Shown piece after piece: positions 55,547 through 58,704 of a DNA stretch of 64,000 bases. The position numbers were made by a program, and so were the translations under genes. The notes under the pieces were generated by a model. It was not told the origin of the DNA. It searched no databases and saw nothing but the letters and a program-made list of their open reading frames with translations. The stretch comes from Deltaproteobacteria bacterium (GTDB lineage: Bacteria > Desulfobacterota > Desulfuromonadia > Geobacterales > Pseudopelobacteraceae). The stretch spans positions 62,001 to 126,000 of the forward strand of contig JAJZRX010000001.1 in the NCBI GenBank assembly GCA_021850095.1. The letters are read 5' to 3'. Numbering within the stretch: position 1 is the first letter of the stretch; each line of letters begins with the position of its first letter.

Positions 55547-55630
55547 CAATATATTGTTGTCTATACAGTACGGGCCTGTGAATAATAATAAGAATTGTTA
55601 CTGAATGGATATACCGTCTTGGGACTTAAT

Positions 55631-55680
55631 GGGGGCAGGCACCAATTGGCTGGTCCCTTTTTCAAGGGCCTGTCCCCTTA
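55631..55680. repeat. REP-like imperfect palindrome GGGGCAGGC...GCCTGTCCCC
   Basis: arms at both ends of a ~50-nt hairpin abutting the stop codon of 55678-56226. Confidence 0.55.
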
Positions 55681-56226
55681 TTGTCCGATACCATCTGGAA
55701 TCTTTGATCGCATCATTTCTCTTCGATTCAACCTGCGCCCATCCGTTACGAACGTTCCATCGCCAATTGCGTGAACAGTTCGCTTCTCTTTTCGTGAATT
55801 GTCAAAGTACGCAGCGAGGCCTTCAAGCACAACGATATTGTGCTTTTCGACGATATCGATAATTTTACATTCGATATTCGCCAGGCATTCCTTAATCAAG
55901 GGCGCCCTGACATGTTTTCCCTTCACAGGAGTTAGCCCGAACATTTCAAATTTGTCTGTGTCAGCGCCGGAACATGTTCCCACTCCAACAACTGTATCAA
56001 GCAGGTCAACAGTGGGAATTGAAATTACACAATCTTTCGATTTCAAAAGTGCGGCATAAGAATAGTTCCATGGCCCAGTGGTTATGGCAAACCTCGGCGT
56101 AAAGTCCATCACCATCGTCCACGAGATCGTCATGATGTTGTTCTTCTTTCCATCATGTGTCGTAACGAAGACAACGGGGCCTGGTTCTATCAGCATGAAC
56201 GCTTTGCTGATTTGCATCCTCTCCAT
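55678..56226 (-). CDS. flavin reductase family protein (last cassette)
   Basis: MTISWTMVMDFTPRFAITTGPWNYSYAALLKSKDCVISIPT; AGGAGG RBS just after R' of attC C. Confidence 0.8.
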   Translation of the reverse strand: MERMQISKAFMLIEPGPVVFVTTHDGKKNNIMTISWTMVMDFTPRFAITTGPWNYSYAALLKSKDCVISIPTVDLLDTVVGVGTCSGADTDKFEMFGLTPVKGKHVRAPLIKECLANIECKIIDIVEKHNIVVLEGLAAYFDNSRKEKRTVHAIGDGTFVTDGRRLNRREMMRSKIPDGIGQ

Positions 56227-56230
56227 AAAC

Positions 56231-57031
56231 TCAAACCCTCCTATCCGGTTTGATTAACGGTTCACGTGGTGTGCGGCTGGCCGCACCACCCCGATGTTGT
56301 GCATTGAATGTAGCAACAATAGGATTGTGGTCACTCATGTCACTCCATCCTTCGGTATGCACCTCGCACGATTCGAGGTAGCGGAACCATGAAACCGGAA
56401 TAAATATTCCGTCACAGTGGTACGGCGCATTCATATTTCCTGTCCAACGGAGCGTTTGCGGTAAGTTTTGGTTTGGATTGATGGCTTGCCAAGCGTTGAT
56501 GAGGCCAAAATCGCTTTTGAGGCGGCGAAGAATGGAGAGTTCAGTTTTCGTGTTGTTTAATTCTTCGGAGGGGTGTCGAACAGCTGTAGTAATATTGAAG
56601 TCACCTCCGATCAGGAGGTCGCAGTCTTGAGTGTCTTTCTGTATAAAATCAAGAATATCATTTACTTTCTTTTCATAAGGACCGGGCGAAGGCGCATGAA
56701 CACTGAAAACCATTACAGGTCTCGCCACTCCTCCGATGGAGAAGTCTGGAATCAAGCCTCCAGCTACCCACCCTTCAAACGCCGTAGGCACTGAAACATC
56801 TTCGATTTTATGTTGCGGTGCAAGTATTGCGCTTCCCCACTTCGAGGGTAATGACTGCCAAACTATGGAGCCTTCAAATTTCTTATTCTCACTCTCCGGG
56901 ATATACACTGACGGGTGAAATGATTCCTGAACAAGAACCAAATCCGGTGCAAATTCACTGATGATCCTTTGCCAGTGGTTTCCTGTTTTGGTATGTCCGC
57001 CGTAGTGAAGGTTGAAGGTTACGATTTTCAT
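56231..57031 (-). CDS. endonuclease/exonuclease/phosphatase family protein (cassette)
   Basis: IVTFNLHYGGHTKTGNHWQRIISEFAPDLVLVQE; LIGGDFN; SDHNPIVATF. Confidence 0.88.
   Translation of the reverse strand: MKIVTFNLHYGGHTKTGNHWQRIISEFAPDLVLVQESFHPSVYIPESENKKFEGSIVWQSLPSKWGSAILAPQHKIEDVSVPTAFEGWVAGGLIPDFSIGGVARPVMVFSVHAPSPGPYEKKVNDILDFIQKDTQDCDLLIGGDFNITTAVRHPSEELNNTKTELSILRRLKSDFGLINAWQAINPNQNLPQTLRWTGNMNAPYHCDGIFIPVSWFRYLESCEVHTEGWSDMSDHNPIVATFNAQHRGGAASRTPREPLIKPDRRV
56252..56302 (-). other. attC-like site C (degenerate)
   Basis: minus strand GCACAAC-ATCGGGGTGGTGCGGCCAGCCGCACACCACGTGAACC-GTTAATC; internal imperfect stem. Confidence 0.55.
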
Positions 57032-57042
57032 TTATTTCCTTT

Positions 57043-57101
57043 CTGCAACGGGCCGGGAGAACACCGGCGGTTTTTAGGCCGGTGCTTCTTCCTGGTTGAA
57101 C
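57043..57101 (-). other. attC-like site B
   Basis: minus strand GTTCAAC-CAGGAAGAAGCACCGG...CCGGTGTTCTCCCGGCCC-GTTGCAG; extrahelical base. Confidence 0.7.
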
Positions 57102-57775
57102 AGATGTTCCGCAGAATTTGTTTTCGTATCCAACTCTTTGTATCGTTCGATTAGGCTTTCCAATGTCAACTGTACTTGTGAAAGCAAATTTTTTGTAATC
57201 ACTGAATCAAATAAGAGGTAATTGTAGAAAAAGGTAATCCCAATTTCTTGTTTTCCCCAAGCCGTTATTTTACGCCTGCTCTTTTCGTTTAGCATATCCA
57301 AACGACCATTTACATGTGCTATTGCATGGCGAAGTTCTGCAAGCATTTTAATGCACTGCCAAGCTTCATTGTCGCTACACAACTCAAATCTGAGGATGTT
57401 TTTGTAGTACTTACTTGCCCGCTCAAGAAAGTCGCCCCTGAGGTCATTAATCCCTATTTCTTGACCTTGTGATTTCTGTAGTAGAGAAGCGATTTCGGTT
57501 ACACCCGTTTCAAACGCTGCATATAAAGCCACAATATATGGCCCCCAGAAAACCCGAGGCAAAAGAAATTCAACTTTGTGCTCACATTCCTGTCGAGCGA
57601 AATCCCATTCAGGATCTTCGGGGGTTAAATTTTCTCTTTTTAGGTATTCCAGCAGAGTTGCTTCTTCTGCCTCTTTTAGGTGTAAAAGCTGATTATTTAT
57701 GAGTTCGTAATGATCCTTAAGAGCATAAAGCTCTAAGGAAACATCAAGTAATCGGAAATCAACATTTATCTTCAT
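57074..57775 (-). CDS. HEPN-like protein (cassette)
   Basis: all-helical; MLAELRHAIAHVNGRLDML carries R-x4-H; stop codon lies within attC B. Confidence 0.5.
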   Translation of the reverse strand: MKINVDFRLLDVSLELYALKDHYELINNQLLHLKEAEEATLLEYLKRENLTPEDPEWDFARQECEHKVEFLLPRVFWGPYIVALYAAFETGVTEIASLLQKSQGQEIGINDLRGDFLERASKYYKNILRFELCSDNEAWQCIKMLAELRHAIAHVNGRLDMLNEKSRRKITAWGKQEIGITFFYNYLLFDSVITKNLLSQVQLTLESLIERYKELDTKTNSAEHLFNQEEAPA

Positions 57776-57809
57776 GGGTTCTTTTCTTTCATGGCACCCT
57801 TAACTGTAA

Positions 57810-58046
57810 TCATGCACCGGGCTTATCACTTCTGAAGCCTTCCACTACCCAAGCGATTCCTCTAACAATCCAGAAAGGGAAGAAAAAACTGGTGGGTAAT
57901 CCAGCAAATAGGATTAACCAGCCCTGCAATTCAATTGAGTTGGCGTTCTTGAAAAACTCTGTCACGACTAAAGCAAAGATGATCCACCCCAACAAGCCGA
58001 GGAGTCCCAGCAGGATTGACAAGCGGCGTATTCCTTCTGTTCTCAT
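57810..58046 (-). CDS. small two-TM membrane protein (same cassette)
   Basis: MRTEGIRRLSILLGLLGLLGWIIFALVVTEFF...LILFAGLPTSFFFPFWIVRGIAWV; AAGGAG RBS. Confidence 0.65.
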   Translation of the reverse strand: MRTEGIRRLSILLGLLGLLGWIIFALVVTEFFKNANSIELQGWLILFAGLPTSFFFPFWIVRGIAWVVEGFRSDKPGA

Positions 58047-58061
58047 TTCATTCTCCTTCTT

Positions 58062-58122
58062 GTTCAACGGGTCGGGAGATCACCGGGCGGCATTTCGGCC
58101 AGGTGCATCTCCCTGGTTAGGC
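58062..58122 (-). other. attC-like site A
   Basis: minus strand GCCTAAC-CAGGGAGATGCACC...GGTGATCTCCCGACCC-GTTGAAC; both cores fit RYYYAAC/GTTRRRY; stem GGGAGAT(G)CACC/GGTGATCTCCC. Confidence 0.88.
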
Positions 58123-58132
58123 TTTCCTTGAA

Positions 58133-58594
58133 CTATCTTCGAGCTTTACCGCTAATCCGGTCGATTTCTATTTTGAAGACCTTTGTAATCTTGTCTTTTT
58201 GCTCAATGTAGCGTTTGCTCTCTTCGATAAAGTCAGAACAGTATTTCTCCAACAGCCACATCAAAGCGTCATGTCTCACGGCGCCATGCACCTCTGAAGC
58301 TCGGCCAAACACCACGACACTTTCGTATTCTGTGCCAAATTTATCTGGCAGAATCTTGGTCTTGCCAACCACGCAAAAAGATACCTTTGCGTTGTGCTCG
58401 ATATTTTCGAGTTTATGGCCGCTGATGGCACAGTGGAAATAGATGGAATCTCCCTTGTAAACGTAACTCAACGGCACGCCATAGGGTTGTCCGTCGTTGC
58501 CGACCGTCGATAAAACTCCATATTCGGCGGAATCGAGGATGTTTATTGATTCTTGTCGGGTTATTTCTCGGTCACTTCTCCGAACTTCCTTCAT
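58133..58594 (-). CDS. pyridoxamine 5'-phosphate oxidase-like/NimA-type protein (cassette)
   Basis: YGVLSTVGNDGQPYGVPLSYVYKGDSIYFHCAISGHKLENIEHNAKVSFCVVG; start chosen just inside R' of site D. Confidence 0.85.
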   Translation of the reverse strand: MKEVRRSDREITRQESINILDSAEYGVLSTVGNDGQPYGVPLSYVYKGDSIYFHCAISGHKLENIEHNAKVSFCVVGKTKILPDKFGTEYESVVVFGRASEVHGAVRHDALMWLLEKYCSDFIEESKRYIEQKDKITKVFKIEIDRISGKARR

Positions 58595-58609
58595 TCGTTC
58601 TTCCTTTAT

Positions 58610-58654
58610 GCCTAACTCCTTATTCACCGGTTCACGCGCGTGCGCGCGTGAACC
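58610..58654 (-). other. attC half-site D with 26-nt perfect palindrome
   Basis: minus strand GGTTCACGCGCGCACGCGCGTGAACCGGTGAATAAGGA-GTTAGGC; clear R', no clear R''. Confidence 0.6.
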
Positions 58655-58704
58655 GCTCATCCCCCCAAACGGAACATTTATACCGTTACCTAAAAATCAA
58701 ATCC

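Follow-up and report, generated by a model that had tools for sequence, protein, structure and literature searches.

The minus strand of the 64-kb window (the whole stretch of DNA that was analysed) carries an array of integron cassettes that has very probably been inserted at a dedicated attI-like site, here called D, of which about 11 copies are dispersed in this genome and which occurs throughout the Geobacterales; an IntI encoded elsewhere or present transiently would insert the cassettes at its G|TT junction. Read from the sequences, D ends at G|TT, the cassettes and their attC sites lie on one strand behind it, D is fixed and the cassettes vary, empty and filled forms both occur, and the core of D is attI-like. 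We further favour, with less assurance, a distributed integron in the Geobacterales, with one or two integrases and a family of hairpin-extended attI-like platforms that capture cassettes at many loci at once, so that D would be a new class of attachment site.

The array comprises five ORFs with attC-like sites in between (Table 1). The preliminary description had four short genes here, but cassette 2 contains two ORFs. The protein of cassette 1 scores 114.7 bits against the NimABCDEF model, far under the cut-off of 260, and in another species a relative with 53% identity lies behind a D. The right end of the putative cassette 3 is uncertain because site C, which would close it, is doubtful. 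No closing attC was found behind the last gene, where neither of our attC models, R1 and R3, gives a match downstream. Where that site would be expected, directly past the last ORF at 55600-55677, there is an inverted repeat, GGGGACAGGCCC...GGTGCCTGCCCCC; it resembles repeats of the dispersed REP type, and the array may have been cut short by it. Searches of the window with Rfam (gathering threshold) and ARAGORN gave no match.

Table 1. Features of the cassette array and its attachment site, in window coordinates.
Feature	Position	Strand	Evidence and remarks
D element, 70-nt attI-like attachment site	58614..58683 (= C11:120614-120683)	-	R2 82.3 bits; 64-copy alignment; hairpin covariation
Cassette 1, from TTAGGC... 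to the G of the site A core	58068..58615	-	start and R'' exactly complementary (GTTAGGC/GCCTAAC)
ORF of cassette 1, 153 aa, PPOX-fold flavoprotein related to Nim reductases	58133..58594	-	PF12900 75.2 bits
attC site A, closes cassette 1	58062..58122	-	R3 57.2 bits, E 6.7e-11; bulged stem
Cassette 2	57049..58067	-	start TTGAAC (core GTTGAAC); R'' GTTCAAC, the exact complement
Small hydrophobic ORF of cassette 2, 78 aa	57810..58046	-	no match in Pfam or NCBIfam
Second ORF of cassette 2, 233 aa, weakly HEPN-like, stop within site B	57074..57775	-	PF18735 20.8 bits, below cut-off
attC site B, closes cassette 2	57043..57101	-	R3 67.8 bits, E 2.4e-13
Putative cassette 3	56258..57048	-	start is the site B core
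ORF, endonuclease/exonuclease/phosphatase-like, 266 aa, through site C	56231..57031	-	PF03372 21.6 bits, below cut-off
Site C, possible degenerate attC	56252..56302	-	R1 46 bits, but a training sequence; no R3 match
Last gene, flavin-reductase-like ORF	55678..56226	-	PF01613 91.7 bits

The attC sites were examined with R1 and R3, both custom Infernal covariance models. R1 was trained on 11 sites including A, B and C, and its scores for these three are therefore circular. R3 was trained on 35 attC sites drawn exclusively from other genomes (intI-linked arrays and D loci), with no sequence from the window; R1 served to collect its members, so that its independence of A and B extends to sequence and not wholly to design. 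There is strong pair covariation in the R3 alignment, with 113 double-changed cells against 38 in shuffles, a count that is favoured by the fitting of the alignment to the R1 structure. Across the 64-kb window R3 matches A and B and nothing else. Both have R'' and R' cores with GTT and an imperfect stem with an extrahelical base, and in each the R'' is exactly complementary to the start core of its own cassette. A and B are genuine attC sites (E 7e-11 and 2e-13 with R3), at the positions first proposed for them. A simple pattern for the attC 3' arm finds mostly chance matches beyond A and B, the exceptions being a site on contig C32 and one in the array on contig C108.

Site C, proposed at the same time as a degenerate attC, folds as an attC should, an extrahelical G included, but it is not detected by the independent model R3 in the window. 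Its R'', GCACAAC, agrees with the start of its own cassette, GTTGCAG, at one of the four variable positions, and the preceding ORF runs straight through it to a stop at 56231. Because it fails both the R3 and closure tests and is read through by an ORF, we treat C as doubtful.

The array begins at what had been taken for an attC half-site. This is instead one copy of a 70-nt repeat, D (58614-58683), which consists of a left block TAAATGTTCCGTTTGGG, a hairpin GGTTCACGCGCGCACGCGCGTGAACC and an attI-like core GGTGAATAAGGAG|TT, with a predicted crossover between G58616 and T58615. The possibility that D is itself an attC was rejected, as there is no R'' core and the stem has no bulge. The consensus over ~70 nt is GGATAAATGTTCC[AG]TTTGGGnnGATSASC, a GC-rich hairpin and then GGTCAATAACGAGTT. 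Six pairs of the hairpin covary with both sides changed. An alignment of 64 copies has 22 invariant columns, some of them automatically so, as the copies were gathered by a fixed left-block pattern. The right edge is sharp: in 72 copies the last T of GTT still carries 1.81 bits, and two positions further on the information is 0.13 bits. The left edge is also sharp, with unrelated genes adjoining. The left edge, GGATAAAT, looks like a -10 element.

How general is D? The motif to the left of the core recurs just 3' of DUF362 genes in relatives and elsewhere in the same genome. The 72 copies were obtained by scanning 85 462 species genomes, and all are in Geobacterales-type or loosely named 'Deltaproteobacteria' records. 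The genome of the window, scanned with models and patterns, has 11 copies by model R2. Among 244 genomes of the class R2 matches 93, of which 89 belong to the same order, with up to about 18 matches per genome; these counts overstate the number of copies since the palindrome is also matched on the reverse strand (15 listed against 11 real in the genome of the window). The other four genomes are G062 (locus L295), G055, G133 and G191, the G062 copy having an attC downstream, and the presence of D outside the order suggests transfer or greater age. An exact pattern search of viral contigs found no D. Contig C16 of the genome carries tandem copies at 816-885 and 2108-2177, 1.2 kb apart on the same strand with ORFs after each, and these are two platforms in series. 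In Geomonas sp. Red32 two elements (L243 and L250) share the left half AAATGTTCCGTTTGGGGGGATGAGCGG with D; they have another right half, no GTT core and no cassettes, and may represent a relative or ancestor of D that lacks cassettes.

The sequence behind D consists of cassettes in a consistent orientation. At each copy conservation ends at G|TT and a different cassette follows, with the cassettes on one side of the conserved core. Of 45 attC matches near D, 43 are downstream on its strand, the two sides of D being represented by similar amounts of sequence, and twenty D loci fetched later gave a same-strand downstream attC in 14 of 19 that were usable. The R'' of the first attC agrees with its own D junction at 79 of 116 positions (shuffled mean 47, maximum 68 in 20 000), and fits that junction far better than those of other D copies. 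An ORF with an ATG start begins a median of 35 nt after the GTT, compared with 251 nt on the other side. On the D-bearing contigs of the genome of the window every R3 match is downstream of D and on the D strand; seven of the 11 copies have such an attC, two of them weak, and at the remaining four R3 detected none. The same genome has attC sites with no detected D, namely an array of four or five at C108:1375-5908 (L173) and single sites on C32, C49, C66 and C77, some of the latter near contig ends.

Comparison of orthologous loci shows, as far as sequence can, that DNA has been inserted at D. Genomes G010 and G021 have D and both flanks in common (94-96%), and unrelated inserts of 2.9 and 2.4 kb; G024 shares the upstream side and D of this locus. 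At a second locus D is followed almost at once by the flank in G012, and is thus empty, while in G008 6.6 kb are inserted there; R1 detects no attC at the right end of the G008 insert. A 543-bp cassette that is 94% identical in two species adjoins D in locus L247 and an attC in the unrelated locus L251, the homology beginning at G|TT, and an ORF at a D locus encodes a protein with a relative, 64% identical, that belongs to an intI-linked array in a different genome. The D locus of C103 was considered as a further ortholog of the G010/G021 locus; its correspondence is regional only, with matching flanks, and it was left out of the count because ~0.8 kb of extra DNA precedes its D. Across the genus the interval between DUF362 and dtd (G006, G012, G018 and G019) is a hot spot of variation, and several species have a full or partial D there. 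The DUF362 neighbours in G012 and G019 carry copies of D that are partial or divergent, so the DUF362 locus is weaker evidence when taken alone.

The window contains no integrase, in agreement with the preliminary description, but a search of the whole genome finds two intI loci above the integron-integrase cut-off, on contigs C80 (352 bits) and C74 (344.5 bits) and nowhere else. Alignment of the C80 copy with the C74 protein begins only at residue 72 of the latter. A repeat of ~125 bp with three hairpins is shared by the two contig ends (C74:1-125 and C80:1-125; L002 and L001) just upstream of intI, adjoining the gene near codon 72 in C80, and it probably broke the assembly there. No attI was found beside either gene, both being at contig ends behind this repeat. 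In complete genomes D copies are about 140 kb or more from intI. Of the 89 genomes of the order with D, 38 have no intI at E<=1e-40, many of them drafts; these may be incomplete; alternatively, intI may have been lost from them or reach them transiently.

To measure the resemblance of D to attI, we scored 21 intI loci, 19 of them from relatives, with a weight matrix made from the final 18 nt of D. In 16 of these 19 the best match is 254-955 bp upstream of a divergent intI, which is the position of attI. Twelve matches exceed the shuffled-loci maximum, and at several intI loci (L066, L067, L072, L074, L075) they fall within the shuffled maxima. Thus the core of D is like the attI of related integrases. 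D is not beside intI, and for this reason we name it attI-like, not attI.

Could the cassettes have arrived at random sites, next to a palindromic repeat by coincidence? This would be an ordinary CALIN, in keeping with the lack of a nearby intI and with the known entry of cassettes at non-classical attG sites (Loot 2024, as cited in PMC11023631 and PMC12444791). Yet the 70-nt element stands in front of dozens of arrays that are unrelated to one another, joined to them at G|TT, its core matches attI, and attG insertion in E. coli is described in PMC12444791 as spread over many loci. A coincidental D is strongly disfavoured and we consider it highly improbable. It is unlikely, if somewhat less so, that each locus is what remains of a complete integron after deletion of intI. 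The attI-like core with cassettes next to it is what such a remnant would show, but 114 D-bearing loci totalling 935 kb have no similarity to intI at E<=1e-3, the left block and longer hairpin of D are absent from intI-linked attI, the left boundary is sharp against unrelated genes, and matches reach about 18 per genome, reverse-strand matches included.

A role for D as a REP- or MITE-like palindrome moved by a transposase, with the cassettes as secondary users through a chance resemblance to attI, has rather more to commend it, and we regard it as a minor possibility. Dispersed multicopy palindromes are known in Geobacter (PMC2700814, PMC2996986), and the Geomonas elements L243 and L250 keep the left block in the absence of a GTT core; against this, D nearly always ends in an attI core with a cassette behind it, and a non-exhaustive search tied no transposase to D. 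Spread by a transposase would in any case be compatible with D being an attachment site. Least probable of all is that D forms the 5' portion of a mobile unit, travelling with its cassettes. The two usually adjoin, but this reading is contradicted at two loci: D and its flanks are retained where the cassettes differ, and one locus is a D with no insert. Movement of D together with the cassettes was rejected on the basis of these orthologous loci.

Insertion at a dedicated attachment site would proceed as follows. IntI, whether from a gene elsewhere in the genome or from a transient supply, would act in trans, excising cassettes via their folded attC sites. The excised cassette would enter the GTT core of D, between G and TT, in one orientation, so that the newest cassette would come to adjoin D. 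IntI would be expected to bind and recombine D as duplex attI-like DNA; the stem of D is without the extrahelical bases that are usual in attC, a point that tells somewhat against this reading. The hairpin and left block may aid binding or expression, and the IntI proteins of this genome are presumably active.

An integron is defined as a single platform of intI, attI and array. If the present reading is true, such a conserved attI-like family would account for the presence of cassettes at many chromosomal places, in one orientation and with varied upstream genes, and for the frequency of arrays that have no integrase. D is a directly testable substrate, against attI and against scrambled D, and a marker for cassettes missed by integrase-based searches. 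CALINs, attG and the palindromic repeats of Geobacter are each described in the open-access literature, but no description of a dispersed repeat linked to cassette insertion was found there, where absence is not proof of novelty.

How does the array compare with known systems? It resembles a CALIN in having at least two attC sites (A and B) and cassettes without a nearby integrase, and to this extent the initial description as CALIN-like stands. It differs in that it begins at a conserved, repeated attI-like site common to many loci and species; with D repeated and two intI genes elsewhere in the genome, it is not simply an orphan cluster whose platform was lost, but sits on a platform of the dispersed type. 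D shares with attI the core (AACCGG/AACTGC)TCAATAACGAG|TT, the G|TT junction followed by cassettes and one-sided insertion, but is present in many copies per genome away from intI, and has an extended GC-rich hairpin and a conserved AAATGTTCC[AG]TTTGGG block. Where intI-linked attI has a short palindrome (e.g. CCGGT-CTA-ACCGG) that of D is long, and the TATAGATGC-type repeats to the left of intI-linked attI are missing from D. Repeats such as TATAGATGC/TATACATGTAGATGC are seen before attI upstream of intI in L062-L065 and L071, and are possibly regulatory or integrase-binding.

As with attG, cassettes are inserted at D outside the integron, but attG sites are characterized, in the accounts cited above, as divergent and widely distributed, whereas D is a single conserved family and not a non-classical, divergent site. 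The multicopy palindromic intergenic sequences of Geobacter metallireducens and G. bemidjiensis are likewise dispersed palindromes in the same lineage. D may be among the repeats listed for these species with no link to integrons; the main texts (PMC2700814, PMC2996986) treat them without reference to integrons. Sedentary chromosomal integrons also have chromosomal cassettes and an IntI of the host lineage, but there the cassettes form one long array, in contrast to the many small platforms of D. According to PMC12444791, CALIN cassettes can be mobilized in trans by IntI, and in Xanthomonas CALINs distant from the integrase recur at a few conserved chromosomal loci, which raises the question of dedicated sites there too.
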